This document shows positions 33,163 to 48,687 of a DNA stretch of 64,000 bases, piece after piece. Positions within the stretch are counted from its first letter, which is position 1. Each line of letters begins with the position of its first letter. The notes under the pieces were generated by a model. It was not told where the DNA came from, made no database searches, and saw nothing but the letters and a program-made list of their open reading frames with translations. Made by a program: the position numbers and the translations under genes. The stretch is from Actinoallomurus bryophytorum (GTDB lineage: Bacteria; Actinomycetota; Actinomycetes; Streptosporangiales; Streptosporangiaceae), in assembly GCF_006716425.1 (NCBI RefSeq), contig NZ_VFOZ01000001.1, positions 5,518,001 through 5,582,000 on the forward strand, given 5' to 3'.

Positions 33163-33257
33163 TGACCGGCGACGTGCGGATCGCGGTGGCGCGCCACGCC
33201 GGGACCACCGTCATGGCGGTCTCGTCGTCGCGCGCCGGCCGGCGTGTGCCGCGATGA
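33163..33257 (+). CDS. Very short ORF overlapping the next start (possible rsbT remnant)
   Basis: ATG 33163 opens 31 codons (MTGDVRIAVARHAGTTVMAV then SSSRAGRRVPR) whose stop overlaps the ATG of the following gene as ATGA. Its first residues weakly recall the start of RsbT-type kinases, which normally precede such genes. It may be a translational-coupling leader or a remnant. Evidence is thin. Confidence 0.25.
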
Positions 33258-34300
33258 GCGGCCGGATGACGGTCACCGAGGCGTGGGACCTGACCGTGGC
33301 CGACGAGGGCCAGGTGCACGGCGCGACCGCGGCCGCGTCCGCCGCGGCGCTTGCCGCCGGCCTGGACCCGGGCGAGGTCGCCACCTGTGAGCGGCTCGCG
33401 ACCGAGCTGGCCACCAACCTCGTCCGGCACGCCGTCGGCGGCCGGTTGCTGGTCAGCGTCGCCGGCAAGGGCGCGGTGCAGATCGTCGCGGTGGACCGGG
33501 GCCCCGGTATCGACGACGCGGCGGTGTCCAGGATCGACGGCCGTACGACCGGCACGTCGCTGGGCGCCGGCCTGGACGCGTGCCGGCGTGAGGCGGCGCA
33601 GTTCGACCTGTACAGCAGGCCTGGACAGGGCACGGTCGTGCTGGCACGGGTCGGACCGGCCGCCGCGGAGCCGGCGGGGCCGGTCGAGTTCGGCGGGATC
33701 ATCACCCCGCATCCGGACGAGTCGGCGGTCGGGGACGGCTTCGGCCTGGCCTGGGAAGGCGAGCGGATGACGATCGGCGTCGTCGACGGCCTCGGGCACG
33801 GAGTCGAGGCGGCCGAGGCGCGGCAGGCCGCGCTGGAGCGGTTCGAACAGCGTCCCGCCCGCGACTCGGCCGGTCTGCTCCGCGAGATCGACGTCGACCT
33901 GCGGGTCACGAGGGGTGCCGCCGCCGCGGTCGCCCAGATCGACGGGCGGTCCCGTCAGCTCACCTTCGCCGGGATGGGCAACGTGACCGGCCGGCTGTTC
34001 CGGCCCGGCAACGCCCAGACGCTCGTGTCCCGGCCGGGCATCCTCGGTGCCGGCCATGGCATCGGCGCCGCCGCCCGGCCACGGCTGCACCGGCTGGTCG
34101 CCGCGGACTGGCTCGCGCCGGCCGTGCTCGTCATGCACACGGATGGCGTCACGAACCGCTGGGACCCGGCCGACCATCCAGGCGCAGACAATCACCATCC
34201 CGCGATCCTGGCCGCGCTGATCTGGCGGGACGCTCTGCGCGGCAACGACGACGCCACGGTTGTCGTAGCCCGTACATCACCGGAGAATGGTCTTCGATGA
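33254..34300 (+). CDS. Anti-sigma kinase-like ATPase fused to SpoIIE/RsbX-type phosphatase
   Basis: A 348-residue protein of the partner-switching system. The N-terminal half is a GHKL/RsbW-like ATPase: ATCERLATELATNLVRHA (N box) and VAVDRGPGIDD (G1). The C-terminal half is a PP2C/RsbX-like phosphatase: MTIGVVDGLGHGVEAAEA, FAGMGNVTGRLF, VLVMHTDGVTNRW and DDATVVVA. Such proteins control STAS antagonists of a sigma factor. The stop overlaps the next gene by 4 bp (ATGA), so both are made together. Confidence 0.88.
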   Translation: MSGRMTVTEAWDLTVADEGQVHGATAAASAAALAAGLDPGEVATCERLATELATNLVRHAVGGRLLVSVAGKGAVQIVAVDRGPGIDDAAVSRIDGRTTGTSLGAGLDACRREAAQFDLYSRPGQGTVVLARVGPAAAEPAGPVEFGGIITPHPDESAVGDGFGLAWEGERMTIGVVDGLGHGVEAAEARQAALERFEQRPARDSAGLLREIDVDLRVTRGAAAAVAQIDGRSRQLTFAGMGNVTGRLFRPGNAQTLVSRPGILGAGHGIGAAARPRLHRLVAADWLAPAVLVMHTDGVTNRWDPADHPGADNHHPAILAALIWRDALRGNDDATVVVARTSPENGLR

Positions 34301-35934
34301 ACGAGCGGATCCAGGACGGACCGATCGGCGATCCGGTCGCGGCCCTCGCCACGGTCGCGTCCGCCATGGGACGGTTCGGCGTCGCCGAGGACGAACGCGC
34401 CGGGTTCCTGGCCACCGTCGCACGGGCGCTGCGCGACCACCGGCCCGGCGACCGGCTCACGCTCAGCGTCACCGGCGGATCCCTGAGCGCCACGGTCGGG
34501 AACGGCGCGGCACCCGCCTCGACGGCGACGGTCGCGGCGTACGGCGAGACCGCGTCCGACGGCCGCGGCGACGGGGCCGGACTGCTCGACCTCGTCATCG
34601 GCCAGCACGAGGCCCTCGGCCGGCAAGGGCAGGAGCTGGAGCAGACCGGCCAGGGAGTCGTCGCGCTGCACGCCGAGCTCGCCGAGACGACCGAGCGGCT
34701 CCGCCACGCCAGTGACCTGCAGCGCCGCCTGCTGAGCGCCGAACGCCGGGCACATGCCGTGGCCGAGGCGTCACGTGCCCGGCTGGCGTTCCTGGCCCAC
34801 ACCGGCGCCATCCTGGCCGAGTCGCTCGAGCACGAGCGGCTTCTCTGGCGGTTGCACGCGAGCGTCGTCCCGCGTTACGCGTCCCGCATGACGGTGTGGC
34901 TGGTCCGCGAGCCCGGCCTGCTCGACCCCTATCCGCCCGCGGCCGAGGCCGAGCGGCCCCGGCCGCTGGTCGAGAAGGCGTTCAGCAGCGGCCGGGCCCA
35001 GCACGCTACCCGCGTGCCGGGCGACGAGGAAGTGGCGCCGGGCGTCGACACCACGATCGACGATCAGCAGATCCTCGCGGTCCCGCTGATCTCACGAGGC
35101 ACCACCCTCGGCGTCCTCGCCGTCGAGCCGCCCGCGGACTCCTTCACCGCCGAGGACGTCGCGGTCTTCGGCGAGCTGGCCCGGCTGACCGCCGCCGCGA
35201 CCGACAACGCGCTGCGCTACGAGCACGAACGCGACGTCGCGGAGCTGCTGCAGCGTGCCATGCTCACCGACCTGCCGTCGTCTGGACGGCTGCGTTTCAC
35301 CGCTCGCTACCTGCCCGCCGAGGCGGGGCTGAACGTCGGCGGCGACTGGTACGACGCGTTCGAGCGCCCCGACGGCGACATGGTCGCCGCGGTCGGCGAC
35401 GTCACGGGGCACGGGCTTCAGGCGGCCGCCCTCATGGGACAGCTGCGCACCACGCTGCGGGCGTTCGCGATCGACGCCGACGGCCCGGGCGAGGTCCTGA
35501 CCCGGATGCACCGGCTCCTGTCGCATCTTCAGCCGGACGACCTGGCCACCGCGGTGCTCGCGCAGGTGTCCGGCGACGGCCTCCTGCGCTGGGCCAACGC
35601 CGGTCACATGCCGCCGTTGCTCCGCGCGCCCGATGGCACCGTGACGGTGCTGGAGGGCCACGACTTCCTGCTCGGCATGCCACTGGAGGGCGCACGCCTG
35701 CAGGAGTTCGGCATCCGGCCCGAGCCCGGCTCGATCGTGCTCTTCTACACCGACGGACTCATCGAGCGGCGCGGAGTGCCCCTGGGGGAGGGGATCGACA
35801 AGCTCGCCAGGGCGTTCGCGCGGGCGGATGGCGAGCTCGACGTCATCGCCGACAGCGTGCTCACGGACATGCTGCGCGACAGCGCCCGCGAGGACGACAC
35901 GTGCCTGCTGATGTTCCGCACGGCAACGCCGTGA
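34297..35934 (+). CDS. PP2C-type (SpoIIE) phosphatase with coiled coil and GAF domain
   Basis: A 545-residue signalling protein. Residues about 1-100 are low in recognisable features. A coiled coil covers about 105-165 (HEALGRQGQELEQTGQGVV ... ERLRHASDLQRRLL). A GAF sensor covers about 165-305 (DDQQILAVPLISRGTTLGVLAVE). A SpoIIE phosphatase covers about 320-543: LNVGGDWYDAF, AVGDVTGHGLQAA, WANAGHMPPLL, LFYTDGLIERR and REDDTCLLMFR, with all metal-ligand Asp residues. It should dephosphorylate an anti-sigma antagonist in response to a bound signal. Coupled to the upstream gene. Confidence 0.93.
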   Translation: MNERIQDGPIGDPVAALATVASAMGRFGVAEDERAGFLATVARALRDHRPGDRLTLSVTGGSLSATVGNGAAPASTATVAAYGETASDGRGDGAGLLDLVIGQHEALGRQGQELEQTGQGVVALHAELAETTERLRHASDLQRRLLSAERRAHAVAEASRARLAFLAHTGAILAESLEHERLLWRLHASVVPRYASRMTVWLVREPGLLDPYPPAAEAERPRPLVEKAFSSGRAQHATRVPGDEEVAPGVDTTIDDQQILAVPLISRGTTLGVLAVEPPADSFTAEDVAVFGELARLTAAATDNALRYEHERDVAELLQRAMLTDLPSSGRLRFTARYLPAEAGLNVGGDWYDAFERPDGDMVAAVGDVTGHGLQAAALMGQLRTTLRAFAIDADGPGEVLTRMHRLLSHLQPDDLATAVLAQVSGDGLLRWANAGHMPPLLRAPDGTVTVLEGHDFLLGMPLEGARLQEFGIRPEPGSIVLFYTDGLIERRGVPLGEGIDKLARAFARADGELDVIADSVLTDMLRDSAREDDTCLLMFRTATP

Positions 35935-36000
35935 CCATCACGTGTCCGCGGTTCCGGTCCACGTGGTGGCCCGCTCGGAATATAGTTGGCGTAATAAGAC

Positions 36001-36018
36001 AGTTGTCCTCCGGCAACT
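36001..36018. promoter_or_regulatory. Short inverted repeat before the 88-residue protein gene
   Basis: AGTTG-TCCTCCGG-CAACT, 76 bases before ATG 36094, in an AT-richer stretch (ATATAGTTGGCGTAATAAG) that may hold a promoter. A weak operator candidate. Confidence 0.35.
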
Positions 36019-36093
36019 AACGCGGTCCCCGGGGCCGCTGGAACATATCGGCGGTCCTCTTCACCGGGTCCCGCCGTGCTGGAAGGAGCCTCG

Positions 36094-36360
36094 ATGGCTG
36101 ACTCCGAGACGGAGCAATACGGTGAGCTCGTCGACCGGCTGGCCGGCGACTATCCCGACGTCCCCCAGCAGGTCGTGGAGGAGCAGGTCGCCAAGGCGGT
36201 CGAAGGGACTCATCTGTTCGGCGAGGTTCCGACGACCGTGGAGCTGGTCGAGACCATCGCGACGGAGAACGTCGCACGGGTCGACCGCGCCATGCGCGGC
36301 GGAGCGGACCTGAGCGAGGAGAGCCCCGGACCGCGGGAGCAGGTGGCCACCGAGCCCTGA
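36094..36360 (+). CDS. Small three-helix-type protein
   Basis: An 88-residue cytoplasmic protein: YGELVDRLAGDYPDVPQQVVEEQVAKAVEGTHLFGEVPTTVELVETIATENVARVDRAMRG. It resembles small actinobacterial proteins described as three-helix bundle dimerisation domains (DUF3562-like), whose role is unknown. ATG 36094 has an AAGGAG site. It is convergent with the MarR gene, 7 bases apart. Confidence 0.75.
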   Translation: MADSETEQYGELVDRLAGDYPDVPQQVVEEQVAKAVEGTHLFGEVPTTVELVETIATENVARVDRAMRGGADLSEESPGPREQVATEP

Positions 36361-36367
36361 GCGGGCG

Positions 36368-36859
36368 TCAGGCGGGCATCGAGAAGGACTCGGCCGATCC
36401 GGACGTGCCGGACACGTCGGCCGCGGCGCGGAACTCGCTGAGGCCGTTGAACAGCGCCTGGCGGGCTACGGAGGGCATCCGGGCCAGAACCTTCTTGATC
36501 TCCTCCTGCCGCTCCTGGCGCACGCGGTCGAGCAACGCCTCGCCGTCGGGACTGAGCCGGATGGCGATCTCTCTCCGGGATTGCTGACCGGACTCGCGTA
36601 CAATCAGCCCAGCGGCTTCAAGGCGGTCACACAGTCGGCTTGCCGAGGACAGGAGCGCACCGAGCTCGGCCGCCAGACCACTGAGATTGATCGCTCCGTT
36701 TTGCTCCACGACGAACAGAACGCGCAGCTGAGTGGCCGGAACCGGCACGCCAGGCGCACTCTGTGGTCCCGTCCAGATCCGGACGATCGCTTCGGCGGCC
36801 AGATCGATCGCAGCGGCGCATTCCGACAGCTGCGATGAATCACCCACATCCGCCACCAT
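36368..36859 (-). CDS. MarR family transcriptional regulator
   Basis: A 163-residue winged-helix regulator: LRVLFVVEQNGAINLSGLAAELGALLSSASRLCDRLEAAGLIVRESGQQSRREIAIRLSPDGEALLDRV contains the recognition helix and the wing (SRREIAIRLSPDG). ATG 36859 is used, with TAGGGG upstream. It is divergent from the SpoIIE-type gene starting at 36954, which it may control. Confidence 0.9.
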   Translation of the reverse strand: MVADVGDSSQLSECAAAIDLAAEAIVRIWTGPQSAPGVPVPATQLRVLFVVEQNGAINLSGLAAELGALLSSASRLCDRLEAAGLIVRESGQQSRREIAIRLSPDGEALLDRVRQERQEEIKKVLARMPSVARQALFNGLSEFRAAADVSGTSGSAESFSMPA

Positions 36860-36953
36860 ACCCCTACCGTCACACATCGCGCGTGCGCAGTCACTCGTTC
36901 ACGCCGCGCATCCGAACAGTTCATTACCCAAGGCAGCCGAGCGAGACGAGATC

Positions 36954-38135
36954 ATGTCCGAAGACCAGCGACGTAACACCGAACGCGCCATCTGGGAGGC
37001 TCAGCCGCACGCCCTCGCCGGGAGTGTGTCCGACGCCATCCGGCAGTCCTATGGCGCGACCTCCGTCGAGTTGCTGCTCGCGGACTACCGGCTGGACTTC
37101 CTCATCCCGGTCGCCTCGGAACGCCCGGGGTTCCGTATGGACGGCACGCCCGCCGGACGCGCCTTCGCCGCGCAGGAGCCGGTGCTGAGGCCGCCGGCCG
37201 ACGACGGGCCCTGGGAGTTCCACCTGCCGCTGGCCGTGCGGGGCGACCGCTCCGGCGTCCTCACCGTGTCACTGCCGGACCAGCCCGACCTGGCCACACG
37301 TGAGGAGCTCGTCGCGCTCGCCATGGTCCTGGCCCGTGCGCTCAAGATCGCCGATGACGGCACCGACCTCTACCGGCGCGTGCGGCGTCGCAACCGCCTC
37401 ACGCTCGCCGCGGAGATCCAGTGGGAGCTGCTGCCCGGACGCTCGTGCGTGACGGATGAGTTCCACCTGGCCGGGCAGCTCGAGCCGGCCTACGCGATCT
37501 GGGGTGACAACTTCGACTGGGTGACCGCCGCCGACCACCTGAGCGTCTCCGTCACCAACGGCATGGGCCGCGGGGCCGACGCCGCCCTGCTCACGCAGCT
37601 CGCCGTCGGCGCCCTGCGCAACGCCCGCCGCTCCGGCGCCGACCTGATCGACCAGGCCACGCTGGCGAACGAGACGATCTACAACCACCACCACGGCCGG
37701 CGGCACGTCTCGACGCTCCTGCTGCGGTTCGACCTGGCCACGGGGCGGGCCGCGGTCATCGACGCGGGCTCGCCGAAGATCTTCCGGATGCGCGGCGGCA
37801 AGGTCGATCCGGTCGAGCTGGAGGCGCAGCTCCCGCTGGGCATGTTCGACGACACCCAGTACACCGAGCAGGAGTTCGCCGTCGAGACCGGCGACCGCCT
37901 CATCATCCTCAGCGACGGCTTCCACGCCGCCGTGTCCCCCGGCGGCGATTCCTACGGGGCGTCCGCGCTGGCGATGGGGCTGCGTCAGACCCGCCTGCAG
38001 AGCCCGTCGGAGGCGGTCCGCACTCTCACCCGCGGTCTCCTCGACTACTACGAGGGCGGCGAGATCGCCGACGACGCCGTCGTCCTCTGCCTGGACTGGA
38101 CCGGGCGGACGGCCGGCAGCCCGCCGGGCGTGTGA
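36954..38135 (+). CDS. SpoIIE-type serine/threonine phosphatase
   Basis: A 393-residue protein. The N-terminal part (about 1-140) looks like a degenerate GAF (LADYRLDFLIPVASE ... LPLAVRGDRSGVLTVSL). The phosphatase half has AEIQWELLPGRSC, IWGDNFDW, SVSVTNGMGRGADAALL, IDAGSPKIFRMRGG, RLIILSDGFHAA and DDAVVLCLDW. The motif usually reading DxMGHG is TNGMGRG, so one metal-ligand Asp position is Asn; this may be a subfamily trait or reduce activity. It ends 3 bp from the convergent glpK stop. Confidence 0.87.
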   Translation: MSEDQRRNTERAIWEAQPHALAGSVSDAIRQSYGATSVELLLADYRLDFLIPVASERPGFRMDGTPAGRAFAAQEPVLRPPADDGPWEFHLPLAVRGDRSGVLTVSLPDQPDLATREELVALAMVLARALKIADDGTDLYRRVRRRNRLTLAAEIQWELLPGRSCVTDEFHLAGQLEPAYAIWGDNFDWVTAADHLSVSVTNGMGRGADAALLTQLAVGALRNARRSGADLIDQATLANETIYNHHHGRRHVSTLLLRFDLATGRAAVIDAGSPKIFRMRGGKVDPVELEAQLPLGMFDDTQYTEQEFAVETGDRLIILSDGFHAAVSPGGDSYGASALAMGLRQTRLQSPSEAVRTLTRGLLDYYEGGEIADDAVVLCLDWTGRTAGSPPGV

Positions 38136-43117: not shown

Positions 43118-43224
43118 TCCCTTCGGCGGGCGGGGCGCCGTCCGGCGCCCCGCCTCGCCGCGTGTCACTCCCGTCCCTTGTCTCCCTTTGCCCCCTCAGA
43201 CCCCGAGCCTTGAGGAGCCCGACT

Positions 43225-44931
43225 GTGAAACCCGCATCCCTGGGACCGGCCGATCGCGCACGGGCGGTGCGCGAGCTGGCGGACCAAGAGTTCGACGTGC
43301 TGGTCGTGGGCGGCGGCGTCGTGGGCGCCGGAGCGGCGCTCGACGCCGTGTCACGCGGCCTGTCCGTGGCGCTGATCGAGGCCGCGGACTGGGCGGCCGG
43401 CACGTCCAGCCGGTCGAGCAAGCTGATCCACGGTGGCCTGCGCTACCTCGAACAACGTGACTTCGGCCTCGTACGCGAGGCGCTTCGGGAGCGCGCCTTG
43501 CTGCTGACCAGGATCGCGCCCCACCTGGTGCACCCGGTCCCGTTCCTGTACCCGCTGAAGCACCGGATGTGGGAGCGCTTCTACGTCGGCGCCGGGATCG
43601 GCCTGTACGACTCGATGGGCGGCTCCGGGGCGGTGCCGCGGCACCGGCACCTGAGCCACCGGCGTGCCATGAGGATGGCGCCGGCCCTGCGCGGCGACGC
43701 CTTCGTCGGCGCGATCCAGTACTTCGACGCCCAGGTCGACGACGCGCGCTTCACGATGACGCTCGCGCGCACCGCCGCCGGCTACGGGGCCACGGTCGTG
43801 AGCCGGGCGCGGGCGACCGGCTTCGTCCGTGAGGGCGAACGCATCGCCGGCGCCCACATACGTGACCTGGAGAACGACCGGGAGATCACCGTGCGCGCCC
43901 GCGAGGTGATCAACGCGACCGGCGTATGGACCGAGGAGACCCAGGGGCTCTCCGGCGCCCGCGGCGACCTGTCCGTACGCGCGTCCAAGGGCGTCCACCT
44001 CCTCGTCCCGCGCGACCGGATCCGCCTGGACACCGGCCTGATCATGCGGACGGAGAAGAGCGTCCTGTTCGTCATCCCGTGGGGCCGCCACTGGATCATC
44101 GGGACGACGGACACGCCCTGGGACCTGGACAAGGGCGACCCGGCCGCCAGCGGCGCCGACGTGGACTACCTGCTCGAACACGTGAACTCGGTGCTGACGA
44201 TCCCGCTCGTGCCCGACGACATCGAGGCCGTGTACGCGGGCCTGCGCCCGCTCGTGTCCGGGGGCGCGGCCGAGACGACCAAGCTGTCACGCGAGCACAC
44301 CGTCTCCCAGCCGGTGCCCGGCCTGACCGTGATCGCCGGCGGGAAGTTCACGACGTACCGGGTGATGGCCGAGGACGTGGTCGATGCCGTGGTGGGGCGG
44401 CTGCCGCTGAACGTCCCCGCCTCGGCGACCCACCGGTTGCCGCTCGCCGGGGCCGTCGGGTACGAGGTGCTGTGGAACGACCGACGGCGACTGGCACGCC
44501 GCGCGGGCCTGCACGTCGCACGGATCGAGCACCTGCTGAACCGCTACGGCTCGTGTGTGGACGAGCTCCTGGAGCTCATCGAGGCCGACCCCTCGCTCGG
44601 CGAACCGATCTCCTCGGCCGCGGACTACCTGAAGGCCGAGGCGGTCTACGCCGTGACGCACGAGGGCGCTCTGCACATCGAGGACGTCCTGCGCCGCCGG
44701 CTGCGTGCCTCGATGGAGGAGTGGGACCAGGGCGCCGCCGCGGCGCCGGAGGTCGCCGCGCTCATCGCGCCGCACCTCGGGTGGGACGCCGAGACGGTGA
44801 AGCGCGAGACGGAGCACTACCTGCGCCAGGTCGAGGCCGAGCGCGACGCCCGCCGGCAGCAGGACGACGTCGCCGCGGCCGCCGCCCTGGGGGAGGTTCC
44901 GGCACTGTTCCCGGGCCGCGCCGCCTCCTGA
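43225..44931 (+). CDS. glpD: Glycerol-3-phosphate dehydrogenase (FAD)
   Basis: A 568-residue membrane-associated flavoprotein that oxidises glycerol 3-phosphate to dihydroxyacetone phosphate and feeds electrons to the quinone pool. The FAD loop is VLVVGGGVVGAGAALDAVSRGLSVALIEAADWAAGTSSRSSKLIHGGLRYLEQ. Further blocks are FVIPWGRHWIIGTTDTPWD, AGLRPLVSGG and GKFTTYRVMAEDVVDAV. The C-terminal domain (EGALHIEDVLRRRLR) is typical. GTG 43225 has GAGGAG at seven bases; the ATG at 43162 lacks one. Last gene of the glp operon. Confidence 0.95.
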   Translation: MKPASLGPADRARAVRELADQEFDVLVVGGGVVGAGAALDAVSRGLSVALIEAADWAAGTSSRSSKLIHGGLRYLEQRDFGLVREALRERALLLTRIAPHLVHPVPFLYPLKHRMWERFYVGAGIGLYDSMGGSGAVPRHRHLSHRRAMRMAPALRGDAFVGAIQYFDAQVDDARFTMTLARTAAGYGATVVSRARATGFVREGERIAGAHIRDLENDREITVRAREVINATGVWTEETQGLSGARGDLSVRASKGVHLLVPRDRIRLDTGLIMRTEKSVLFVIPWGRHWIIGTTDTPWDLDKGDPAASGADVDYLLEHVNSVLTIPLVPDDIEAVYAGLRPLVSGGAAETTKLSREHTVSQPVPGLTVIAGGKFTTYRVMAEDVVDAVVGRLPLNVPASATHRLPLAGAVGYEVLWNDRRRLARRAGLHVARIEHLLNRYGSCVDELLELIEADPSLGEPISSAADYLKAEAVYAVTHEGALHIEDVLRRRLRASMEEWDQGAAAAPEVAALIAPHLGWDAETVKRETEHYLRQVEAERDARRQQDDVAAAAALGEVPALFPGRAAS

Positions 44932-45013: not shown

Positions 45014-45220
45014 TCAGCACCAGTCCCAGTCGTCCCAGTCGTCGCAGCAGTCCCAGCCGCAGCCCCACCATGAGATGAGGTGGCTGGCGAGATGCTGACC
45101 GGTCACCGGAGCACTTGTCGTCGCCGCGCCGGCAGGGGACGCCGCACCCATCGTGAGTGCGGCCGCGCCCGCGAAGGCCGCACCGGAGATGGCTACCGCG
45201 AGTCGCTTCGAAATCGCCAT
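45014..45220 (-). CDS. Small secreted peptide with Trp/Asp/Cys-rich tail
   Basis: A 68-residue product. A signal peptide (MAISKRLAVAISGAAFAGAA, cleavage after about SPAGAA) is followed by a short Ser/Thr linker and the tail WWGCGWDCCDDWDDWDWC. Those last 18 residues contain only six Trp, six Asp, four Cys and two Gly. ATG 45220 has an excellent GGGAGG site. The tail could bind metal or form a disulphide-locked knot; a modified peptide is also possible, but no modifying enzyme is encoded nearby. The family is not recognised. Confidence 0.8.
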   Translation of the reverse strand: MAISKRLAVAISGAAFAGAAALTMGAASPAGAATTSAPVTGQHLASHLISWWGCGWDCCDDWDDWDWC

Positions 45221-45248
45221 GGAAATACCTCCCTGGTTCGTCCCGTAC

Positions 45249-45272
45249 GGCATGACGGGTCATTGTCATGCC
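45249..45272 (-). promoter_or_regulatory. Hairpin in the leader of the Trp/Asp/Cys peptide gene
   Basis: GGCATGAC (45249-45256) and GTCATGCC (45265-45272) pair exactly around GGGTCATT, 29 bases before the ATG at 45220. It may act as a dyad operator or an mRNA stem. Confidence 0.4.
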
Positions 45273-45640
45273 AGGCAATTTGCGGCTTTTATGGCCTCAT
45301 CACCTAATTCAACCTCACATGTCCTGGTCGGCAGGCGCAATACTGACAAAGGGCTATATGCCACATCTTGACCACTATTGGATGGGTTTGACGGTCCCGC
45401 TTTAAGTGGTGAACCGCCCTGGTGGGAGCGGATCTCCCGGCTCCGCCGACCGGATATGGCATTCCGCGTGCGGCACGGTCTTCATGGTCCGGTGGATGGC
45501 CTGTCATGGTCCGTTCATGGGCGTATCGCGGGATTTTCGAACGGGACCATCGGCGCCTCGTACGGGACCATCCGGCCCTGCGCCGCCCCTCGTACGCGCG
45601 TTTCGATGGAGGTGTCGACGAGCCGCGGAAGGGGCCGGTC
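45273..45640. other. Divergent control region between the peptide gene and the USP gene
   Basis: AT-richer than its surroundings. GGGACCATCGGCGC (45543-45556) and GGGACCATCCGGCC (45564-45577) lie 21 bp apart before the USP gene, and GGGATTTTCGAACG begins at 45530. These fit the GGGAC-type boxes seen before the other stress genes. No gene is seen. Confidence 0.5.
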
Positions 45641-46507
45641 ATGAACGCGATCATCGTGGGCGCGGACGGTTCGCGCCACAGCCTCGGGGCGGTCGGCTGG
45701 GCCGCCGAGGAGGCCGCCCTGCGGAGGTCACCCCTGCGGGTCGTGCACGCCGTGCCTCCCTGGCTCTATGACCGGAACGTCGACCCGCGGCTCGTCTCGG
45801 TACGCGAGTGGCTGCTCGCCGGTGGCCAGGAGGCCATCGGGGAGGCCGTCGAGACGGCGCGCGCCCGGGTGGGCGGCGAGGTCGACGTCGCGGGGGAGGT
45901 CGTGCCCGGTGGGGCGGCACGCACGCTGCTCGAACGGGCGCGCGAGGCGTCCATGGTCGTGGTCGGCAGCCACGGTGTGGGCACGGTCGCCGGGTTGCTG
46001 CTGGGATCCACGGCGCTGCAGGTGGTGGCGCACACGCGCGTGCCGGCCGTGGTGGTACGCCATGTGGAGCCCGTCCTGCGACAGGAGATCGCGGTCGGCT
46101 TCGACGCGCCGCCGGCCGGCGACTCGACGCTCGCCTTCGCGTTCGAGGAGGCGGCCATGCGCAGGGCGCGCCTGCGGGCCGTACACGTCTGGTCCGACCC
46201 CGGTACCGGGCTGGGCGGCATGACACCGCTGGTCTATGACCCCGAGCAGATCGCCGAGGAGCAGACCCACCGGCTGAACGAGGTGCTCGCGCCCTGGCGC
46301 GACAAGTACCCCGAGGTCCAGGTCGTGATCGAGATCGTCCACGGCCGGCCGGTGCGGATCCTGGCGGGCGTCTCGGCCCGGGCCGATCTCCTGGTGGTGG
46401 GCACCCGCGGACTCGGCGGTTTCACGGGCCTCATGCTGGGTTCGGTCAGCCACGGCCTCCTGCACCACGCCCACTGCCCGCTGGCGGTCGTACCGCCACC
46501 CGGCTGA
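45641..46507 (+). CDS. Universal stress protein, two USP domains
   Basis: A 288-residue tandem USP. Domain 1 (1-140) starts MNAIIVGADGSRHSLGAVGWAAEEA and has the ATP motif G-x2-G-x9-GS in VGSHGVGTVAGLLLGSTA. Domain 2 ends in VVGTRGLGGFTGLMLGSVSHGLLHHAHCPLAVV. Such proteins bind ATP and help survival in hypoxia or stationary phase in mycobacteria. GGAAGGGG precedes the ATG. Two GGGACCATC boxes lie 65-100 bases upstream, suggesting DevR-like control. Confidence 0.93.
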   Translation: MNAIIVGADGSRHSLGAVGWAAEEAALRRSPLRVVHAVPPWLYDRNVDPRLVSVREWLLAGGQEAIGEAVETARARVGGEVDVAGEVVPGGAARTLLERAREASMVVVGSHGVGTVAGLLLGSTALQVVAHTRVPAVVVRHVEPVLRQEIAVGFDAPPAGDSTLAFAFEEAAMRRARLRAVHVWSDPGTGLGGMTPLVYDPEQIAEEQTHRLNEVLAPWRDKYPEVQVVIEIVHGRPVRILAGVSARADLLVVGTRGLGGFTGLMLGSVSHGLLHHAHCPLAVVPPPG

Positions 46508-46602: not shown

Positions 46603-47613
46603 ATGAATGCCGTGGAGACACCGCGGGCGGACGAGATCGCGCACTTTCTCGTCGACGCCGCGGTCTGGGCGCCGTCGGTGTACGACACCCAGCCGTGGTG
46701 GTTCGGCACGCGGGGCTGGACGGTCACCGTGCACGCCGACGCCGAGCGCAGGCTGGACGTGGCCGATCCCCGCGGCCGCGAGATGTTCATCAGCTGCGGA
46801 GCGGCGCTGTACACGCTGCGCCTCGCGGTGCGCAACATCGGGCGGATGCCGGAGGTACGCCTCCGGTCCGACCCGCGCAGGCCCGGCCTGATCGCCGACG
46901 TCAGGGTCGGCGTCGAGGAGCCGGCCACCGCCGAGGAACGGCAGACGTACGCCCAGGTCAGGCGCAGGCACACGCACAGCGGAGGGTTCCGGCCCGGCGG
47001 CCTGCCGATCGGCCTGCTGCAGGCGCTCCGCACCCACGCCTACTGCGAACAGGCCTCCCTGCGCATCGTGGCCGACCCGAGGGCACGGATCGCGCTCGCC
47101 GCCCTGACAGAGGCGGCCGAACAGGTCCAGCGGCAGAACCCGGCGTACGCCGCCGAGGTGGCCCGCTGGGCGGCGGGGGACCGGCCGGCCGCGCCGGCGG
47201 ACCAGGCCGCGCCGCTCGCGCCACTCGGTCCGGAGGAGCCCTGCCCGCGCGAGTCGGCACATCTCGACCCGGACTTCGCCGGATGCGACTTCGCGCGCGG
47301 TCAGGGCTGGGGCCAGGCCGGCACCGAACAGCGAGACGCGAACGGGGTCGTGGCACTGCTGGTGACCGACGACGACGACCGGGACGACTGGCTCTGCGCC
47401 GGGCAGGCGCTGCAGCGGATCCTGCTCTGCGCGGCCGAGTACGAGGTCTCAGCGGCCTTCCACAGCCAGGCGCTGGAGGTACCCGAGCTGCGGGAATTCA
47501 TCCGCAACCGATTCTGCGACGGCGCGCACCCACAGATGATCATGCGGCTGGGCGTCGCCCACGAGGGCCCCGCCCGCCGGTCCGTGACCGAACTGACAAG
47601 AGGCGAACTGTAA
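46603..47613 (+). CDS. Acg family FMN-binding nitroreductase-like protein
   Basis: A 336-residue protein of the Acg (Rv2032-like) branch of the nitroreductase fold. WAPSVYDTQPWWFGTRGWTVTVHADAERRLDVADPRGREMFISCGAALYTLRLAVR is the typical first half, with a second FMN-related half (AGQALQRILLCAAEYEVSAAFHSQALEVPELREFIR ... HPQMIMRLG). Acg proteins belong to the mycobacterial DosR regulon and may sequester FMN. GGGGAG precedes the ATG. It lies among other DosR-type genes. Confidence 0.92.
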   Translation: MNAVETPRADEIAHFLVDAAVWAPSVYDTQPWWFGTRGWTVTVHADAERRLDVADPRGREMFISCGAALYTLRLAVRNIGRMPEVRLRSDPRRPGLIADVRVGVEEPATAEERQTYAQVRRRHTHSGGFRPGGLPIGLLQALRTHAYCEQASLRIVADPRARIALAALTEAAEQVQRQNPAYAAEVARWAAGDRPAAPADQAAPLAPLGPEEPCPRESAHLDPDFAGCDFARGQGWGQAGTEQRDANGVVALLVTDDDDRDDWLCAGQALQRILLCAAEYEVSAAFHSQALEVPELREFIRNRFCDGAHPQMIMRLGVAHEGPARRSVTELTRGEL

Positions 47614-48030: not shown

Positions 48031-48687
48031 CTAGTCGTCCCGTGACCGGTCGCCGCTCGCCTTGAGCTGGGCCACGAAGGCCGCGGCCTGCGTACGACGG
48101 CGCATGTCGAGTTTGGTGAACAGGTTCGACACGTAGTTCTTGACCGTCTTCTCGGCCAGGAACAGGCGCTCGCCGATCTGGCGGTTGGTGAGGCCCTCGC
48201 CGATCAGTTCGAGGATCTGGCGCTCCTGGTCGGACAGGGTGGACAGGGGATCCTTGCGGGTCTGGCGTTCGCGCAGCCGGTGGAGCATCTGGGCGGTGCT
48301 GTGCGGGTCGAGCAGCGACTGCCCGGACGCGACCGTACGGACCGCCGAGACGAGGTCGGACCCGTGGATCTGCTTCAGTACGTATCCGGCGGCGCCCGCC
48401 ATGACCGCGTCGAAGAGCGCCTCCTCGTCGGAGAACGACGTGAGCATCAGGCAGGCGATGCCGGGCAGGCGAGAGCGGATCTCACGGCAGACGCCCACAC
48501 CGTCGCCGTCGGGTAGGCGTACGTCCAGGACGGCGACGTCGGGCCGTACCGCCGGGATCCGCGCGATCGCGTGGGCGGCGGTGGCCGCCTCGCCGACGAT
48601 CTCTATGTCGGACTCGGACTCGAGCAGTGCCGCGACGCCACGCCTGACCACTTCGTGGTCGTCCAGCAGGAATACCCGAATCGTCAT
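48031..48687 (-). CDS. NarL/DevR-type response regulator
   Basis: A 218-residue two-component regulator. The receiver domain has DDHEVVRRGV (acidic pair), the phosphoacceptor Asp in VAVLDVRLPDGDG, and the conserved T and K in MLTSFSD and YVLKQIHGSD. The LuxR helix-turn-helix is LSDQERQILELIGEGLTNRQIGERLFLAEKTVKNYVSNLFTKL. KTVKNYVS is the DevR/DosR-type recognition helix. No histidine kinase lies nearby. A GGGACCAAGGTCCT box, a near-perfect DosR-like dyad, lies upstream and suggests autoregulation. Confidence 0.93.
   Translation of the reverse strand: MTIRVFLLDDHEVVRRGVAALLESESDIEIVGEAATAAHAIARIPAVRPDVAVLDVRLPDGDGVGVCREIRSRLPGIACLMLTSFSDEEALFDAVMAGAAGYVLKQIHGSDLVSAVRTVASGQSLLDPHSTAQMLHRLRERQTRKDPLSTLSDQERQILELIGEGLTNRQIGERLFLAEKTVKNYVSNLFTKLDMRRRTQAAAFVAQLKASGDRSRDD

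Follow-up and report, generated by a model that had tools for sequence, protein, structure and literature searches.

Small secreted surface proteins are known from Streptomyces as the chaplins and rodlins, and the peptides described here resemble them in being small, predicted to be exported via Sec, present in multiple copies in actinomycetes and, in some members, in containing Cys. Unlike the chaplins, the 16 members searched match no Pfam family at E ≤0.01, and no chaplin-like hydrophobic domain is seen in the family tails; the chaplin domain profile was also not found in the 68 aa peptide that is the subject of this report (P0001; E ≤0.1). The peptide families of venoms and amphibian skin share with this one a conserved signal, a variable mature part and gene duplication, but are eukaryotic, and we know of no structured leader RNA in their genes. 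Covarying helices just upstream of the ribosome-binding site of one family recall the orphan cis-regulatory RNA motifs in Rfam, though the leader reported below has no match there. The anionic low-complexity domain of Moraxella bovis LbpB is reported to trap cationic antimicrobial peptides in phase-separated droplets (PMC11022072). Both are secreted (here by prediction) anionic disordered stretches, but that of LbpB forms part of a larger binding protein instead of a 68 aa peptide, and we claim no sequence relation for the likeness.

The window analysed is a stretch of 64,000 nucleotides from Actinoallomurus bryophytorum (contig NZ_VFOZ01000001.1), and coordinates given below are positions within it. 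The gene is located on the minus strand, at exactly the position given in the initial annotation.

45014..45220, minus strand: ORF for a 68 aa secreted-type peptide, MAISKRLAVAISGAAFAGAAALTMGAASPAGAATTSAPVTGQHLASHLISWWGCGWDCCDDWDDWDWC, with ATG at 45220-45218 and stop codon TGA at 45016-45014.
45122..45220, minus strand: predicted signal-peptide region spanning residues 1-33, which the family alignment shows to be conserved.
45071..45121, minus strand: faster-evolving linker, residues 34-50, pN 0.08-0.20 between orthologues.
45017..45070, minus strand: W/D/C/G tail, residues 51-68, WWGCGWDCCDDWDDWDWC, supported by orthologue identity and a run-length control.
45228..45233, minus strand: ribosome-binding site GGGAGG, seen in the sequence and conserved in the leader alignment A2.

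This is a real and unusual gene. The ribosome-binding site, described earlier as strong, is a GGGAGG located 7 nt before the ATG, and the N-terminus shows, by eye, the positive start, hydrophobic stretch and A-x-A-like end of a signal peptide. This signal is also conserved in the family, and the earlier prediction of a small peptide of secreted type is supported. The extreme composition noted for the 18-residue tail is likewise confirmed, as it consists of 6 W, 6 D, 4 C and 2 G and no other residue. Elsewhere in the window the longest run made up of only these four residues in six frames is 8, and in 60 random 64 kb sequences (first-order Markov) no such run exceeded 9. No match to the 68 aa peptide was found in Pfam (E ≤0.1), NCBIfam or the PDB, consistent with the earlier statement that it belongs to no known family, and AlphaFold gave no confident fold (mean pLDDT 54, with residues 58-68 below 50). 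No plasmid copy of the gene was found. A chance ORF was ruled out by the conserved relatives and a purifying pattern of substitution; the frame is conserved in relatives and is therefore not a chance one.

The genes surrounding the peptide gene include the following.

43162..44931, plus strand: GlpD-type FAD oxidoreductase (Pfam DAO and DAO_C), the end of a glpF-glpK-glpD run.
45422..46507, plus strand: universal stress protein (Pfam Usp, E 2.6e-53), divergent from the peptide gene.
46603..47613, plus strand: Acg-family FMN oxidoreductase (NCBIfam NF047509, E 7.6e-73, above the cut-off).
48031..48687, minus strand: DevR/DosR-like response regulator (best PDB match 3c3w, DevR, E 2.4e-77).

The glpF and glpK genes of the run were assigned by Pfam MIP and FGGY, and the coordinates of the Usp gene follow its longest frame, although translation more likely begins further in, near 45643. 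Two GGGACC-containing motifs are found just upstream of the Usp gene (45540-45580) and are candidate DevR-type boxes. Further away, three adjacent ORFs for SpoIIE-type phosphatases, proteins that commonly take part in the regulation of stress sigma factors, occupy 33254-38135. Of 18 distinct neighbouring ORFs scanned (33-57 kb, larger ORFs only), two had no match and none was recognised as a modifying, immunity or metal-transport gene. Nor was a constant partner gene found: tblastn with the window neighbours detected none of them in 19 other member loci.

The gene order was compared in 8 Actinoallomurus genomes, the window's own and 7 others (the genus set). A family member is found at the same position in 7/7 of the other genomes, and in all 8 the Usp and Acg genes are divergent from it. 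The opposite flank is glpF-glpK-glpD in G003 and G006, glpF-glpK in G002, and part of glpK with glpD at a contig edge in G004. The initial annotation had named the lack of homologues with a conserved tail, or a disrupted frame in close relatives, as what would refute its reading; the tail is in fact identical over 54/54 nt in the window, G004 and G006, which represent three species, and is rearranged in G003 (WWGCGWDCCDDCDWDCWDWC). Linkers of G004 and G006 differ from that of the window with pS of 0.22 and 0.38 and pN of 0.08 and 0.11, and the signal region, over the six pairs of four orthologues, shows pS of 0.10-0.24 and pN of 0-0.01. With just 5.3 synonymous sites in the tail, it is chiefly the non-synonymous sites that show it to be conserved. 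At the same place, the remaining four genus genomes carry relatives with different G/W/D/C-rich tails, and G002 has two members in tandem there. At this position W, D, C and G account for 70-100% of the residues from 49 to the end in 8/8 genus genomes, the sequence itself not being kept. The Usp-Acg-DevR surroundings suggest expression under stress or low oxygen, and make growth under these conditions the first of interest.

The peptide belongs to an undescribed family that is found in Actinoallomurus and in a related genus (g51; genomes G057, G106 and G107) where its genes form tandem arrays, and this assignment is well supported. With P0001 alone as query, all 7 of the other genus genomes yielded relatives (best E per genome between 2.2e-40 and 1.3e-6), as did G057; matches at E ≤0.01 were present in 13 of 100 genomes, the window's own included, of which four (G039, G054, G058 and G076) are read as spurious. 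A profile, A1, of 16 members, one row of which is the window copy, matches 8/8 genus genomes at E ≤0.01 with 3 to 6 matches each, a count that takes in weak ones resting on signal peptides, some of which may be chance. At E ≤1e-5, with 16 candidates per genome scored, A1 matches 19 of 341 genomes of the bacterial family. In a set of 394 genomes drawn from the class, with 14 candidates scored in each, the window's own genome was the only one matched at E ≤1e-6. No paper on the peptide family was found in the open-access full-text literature.

Family members share the signal, for which median ungapped identity is 0.61 among 25 genus members and 0.58 among 39 g51 members, compared with 0.15 for shuffled sequences. 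Nucleotide identity computed with free gaps failed to discriminate for leader, signal or tail (0.64-0.67 after shuffling for leader and signal) and was not used. The mature parts vary, and include WDCCDD types, HRNHFRHNQRIIVINRNNNF types, and poly-G/A, poly-N and poly-D/F types. Tail scores nevertheless exceed those of shuffles by at least 10 in 134/300 genus pairs and 373/741 g51 pairs, indicating that the tails are diversified rather than unrelated. The g51 arrays include 11 members at L075 and 13 at L076, with more on the fragmented contigs of G057. By eye, the left flanks are alike in these two species, consisting of a MarR regulator and an FAD hydroxylase gene, and an ADP-ribosylglycohydrolase gene lies beyond the L076 array; flank genes differ among arrays and paralogues.

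This gene architecture, the varied tails, the restriction to one lineage and the occurrence in tandem arrays are what fast-diversifying secreted antimicrobial or signalling peptides would show, the conserved signal serving, as in venom or frog-skin peptide families, to export variable mature parts whose tails act on competitors. Such a role is doubtful, as the window tail is unchanged across 54 nt in three species, no immunity gene was recognised among the scanned neighbours, and the number of Cys in the mature part is not constant but ranges from 0 to 10. To our knowledge, poly-D, poly-G/A and poly-N tails are also unlike those of antimicrobial peptides. The Cys count also bears on the metal-binding or redox function put forward in the initial annotation, by which Asp, Cys and Trp of the tail would bind extracellular copper, iron or another metal. 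The presence of 4 Cys and 6 Asp within 18 residues, both kept in relatives at the same position, is in keeping with this. However, Cys is absent from the tails of some paralogues whose signal and leader are of the same type (L076:3063 and L079:605 among them), which weakens it, and with no metal transport gene recognised among the scanned neighbours we consider it unlikely.

The same annotation also raised the possibility of a precursor of a modified peptide, and a ribosomally made, modified peptide (RiPP) would indeed have a short precursor with a conserved N-terminus and a variable C-terminus. Here the N-terminus reads as a Sec signal, the 18 neighbouring ORFs include no recognised modifying enzyme, the scanned array flanks encode MarR, FAD hydroxylase and ADP-ribosylglycohydrolase, and the flanks of paralogues differ. 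This origin is very improbable.

Upstream of the ribosome-binding site is a conserved leader, one helix of which is the hairpin picked out at 45249-45272 in the initial annotation.

45236..45318, minus strand: whole conserved leader RNA element, matched at E 2.5e-8 by model R3 (built from both genera, the window copy being in its training set).
45273..45305, minus strand: helix P2, AGGTGAT...ATTGCCT with an inner GGC/GCC hairpin, from the predicted fold and alignments.
45249..45272, minus strand: helix P3, GGCATGAC-N8-GTCATGCC, an 8 bp stem in the predicted fold, also seen in alignments.

The leader is a folded RNA with covarying helices P2 and P3; it is new, and well supported. In the sequences upstream of family members the stem letters change and the pairing stays. 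RNAalifold returned no fold for all 25 genus leaders, and subsets were used afterwards, namely 14 of the 25 genus leaders (A2) and 21 of the 39 g51 leaders (A3), leaving out outliers, near-copies and leaders of another type. Structures were read from the same alignments on which they were scored. A2 pairs in 84.2% of cells, and 10 of its 18 pairs change on both sides; A3 pairs in 83.1%, with 17 of 34 pairs changed on both sides. Covariation was 0.285 in A2 and 0.291 in A3, compared with 0.180 and 0.222 after shuffling (0/500 in each case). In the joint alignment of 35 leaders from both genera (A6), 82.9% of cells are paired (74.8% when shuffled and 31.6-43.7% when the structure is slid), and covariation is 0.406 against 0.267 (0/500).

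A further null was obtained by re-placing substitutions along a FastTree tree. Changes on both sides occur in 17 of the 18 A6 pairs and in 62 cells; over 500 runs this null never gave more than 16 such pairs or 42 such cells. The observed number of both-sided cells was reached in 5/500 runs for A2 and 0/500 for A3, and that of pairs in 1/500 and 4/500. Summed G covariation was not significant against the tree null, with runs as high in 53/500 (A2) and 113/500 (A3). The strongest helix is P2 of g51, with 21 both-sided cells (null ≤14 in 300 runs), and P3 of the genus is paired in 92% of cells (null ≤82%), while in g51 both-sided changes are not in excess for P1, P3 or P4 (74, 51 and 244 of 300 null runs, respectively). 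When the best hairpin of any helix, not always P2, was scored in 14 of the 18 g51 leaders outside A3, six were matched by at most 20/300 shuffles and eight were not; the six include L080:5650, which is almost identical to a training row. Taken alone, the window leader has an unremarkable fold energy (z -1.29, 20/200 shuffles folding as well).

A known RNA family was ruled out for the leader, as Rfam gave 0 matches to 45150-45420 at E ≤5 and, at the gathering score, none to the leader of the window or to those of 10 loci. Nor did Rfam matching or the sequence give a hint of a riboswitch ligand. The leader is probably not a coding extension, since its length varies among members by non-multiples of three.

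One promoter-like element was located before the window leader.

45338..45372, minus strand: two-part promoter-like element GTCAA-N27-TTG, upstream of the leader, identified by pattern match.

The pattern [GT]TCAA-N25-27-TTG is present in 14/14 A2 leaders and in 18/3000 random 120-mers, having been read off the same sequences. In g51, a GTTT-N13-18-GG[GA]-type site, also read off the sequences in which it was counted, occurs within 230 nt before 35/39 ORFs, compared with 135/2000 random stretches, and 33 of the 35 are at 173-194 nt. This site resembles the stress sigma factor consensus, GTTT-N14-GGGTAT. Both patterns would place the start of transcription ahead of the folded leader. A sigma-70 scan found no promoter near the peptide gene.

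The shared leader could in principle be just a duplicated promoter/operator, its hairpins being protein-binding palindromes. Leader and signal do duplicate as a unit, the GTGAC/GTCAC-like core of P3 is retained in the manner of a dyad operator, and the promoter-like motifs are similarly conserved. However, the letters of the P2 stem change with pairing kept (9 of 10 pairs are changed on both sides over both genera), and motifs upstream of the fold imply that the fold would be transcribed. An operator alone is therefore quite unlikely.

The reading that we prefer, at a probability of about 0.42, is that the gene encodes an exported low-complexity material or polyelectrolyte peptide, the synthesis of which would be tuned by the mRNA leader. 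The typical gene would be a cassette of promoter, folded 5′ leader RNA (helices P2 and P3, perhaps with P1 and P4 in g51), ribosome-binding site, conserved Sec-type signal and a mature part that varies widely and mostly stays of low complexity. Following export, the signal would be removed near residue 33 to give a mature chain of roughly 35 residues, made up of a short T/A/P/H linker and the acidic aromatic Cys tail. This chain may stay disordered and act via many weak contacts and disulphides, with the tail forming an extracellular coat, a glue or a trap for cationic molecules, and the leader RNA could tune translation or mRNA life. Because an export signal, often the leader, and low complexity are what recur, a physical role of this kind is favoured over specific chemistry. 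A conserved secretion cassette, drifting low-complexity mature parts and a covarying leader RNA are seldom found together in bacteria, and the leader both helps in locating further members and poses a question of regulation that can be tested.

Charges of the array tails accord with such a material role. Tails are net positive in 8 of 11 members at L075 and 9 of 13 at L076, and the last two of each array are acidic (-7 and -28, and -6 and -17, respectively), a pattern that invites a test of co-assembly. The cassette might be reused to export near-arbitrary low-complexity chains, basic and acidic chains of an array co-assembling into a coat or adhesive with the leader setting the dose of each. 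This extension is speculative and we would not expect it to hold, as the three clear members in the window genome are all acidic (-6, -8 and -8) and no basic family partner is seen there. If true, bacteria would have their own equivalent of the secreted systems based on coacervates or silk. The arrays with oppositely charged tails form a natural set for studying the function of secreted low-complexity chains.

Distribution of the leader was followed using model R3 and two further models, R1 from genus leaders and R2 from g51 alone. At E ≤0.1, R1 gives 15 hits in 8/8 genus genomes, 14 of them its own training sequences, and no hit ends more than 1 nt away from the start codon of a family member. 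R3, searched in 341 genomes (13 candidates scored per genome), gives 40 hits at E ≤0.001, all preceding family genes; 32 are training sequences, and the other 8 precede family genes too. A listed family ORF is within 150 nt in 39 of the 40, and the fortieth (G107:C305:6426) belongs to member L076:3063. Up to E 0.1 there are 57 R3 hits, of which 12 (25.6-30.8 bits) lack a listed family gene and are chance-like; when three of these (G136, G007:C31 and G368) were scanned simply for an RBS and a start codon, none had a family ORF. Two of the three clear members in the window genome have no significant leader match. The training leader L095 itself scores only E 0.73 with R3, so that absence of the leader elsewhere is not strict. 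In 394 class genomes, the leader search detected only the copy in the window and a single weak hit at E 0.0078, beside which no family ORF was seen. Leaders lie either 16-20 nt or 55-79 nt from the ATG, and those of the more distant class have the additional hairpin P4.

Given the fold shared across A6, leaders of both genera are likely, though not proven, to derive from one ancestral RNA. R2 detects genus leader L106 at E 4.3e-7 and L087, L088, L090, L095 and L100 at 0.005-0.05, and does not match the window's own leader at E ≤0.1. In the opposite direction, the g51 matches of R1 are confined to 29 nt at the RBS end, apart from one leader at E 0.3. A further R2 hit lies in genus genome G002 (C125, E 5.9e-13), before a peptide of the basic g51 type, and transfer between genera is thus possible.

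Several arrangements were seen at the margins of the family. Three genus genomes (L091, L094 and L099) carry divergent pairs of family members, one W/G-rich and one with CDNWGDCWDTWG, that have a different leader. A distant match in G272 (L086 4420, minus strand) pairs a similar signal with a collagen-like GPxG repeat downstream of it, and ends in a stretch reminiscent of phage tail-collar proteins. In genus g49, R2 gives two weak hits (E 0.0013 and 0.0025), the second preceding a family-like ORF, L085:11825, and the first showing none. Near family-like ORFs of this genus, a c-di-AMP riboswitch (Rfam RF00379, E 4.4e-18) is located at L085 14055-14204 on the minus strand.
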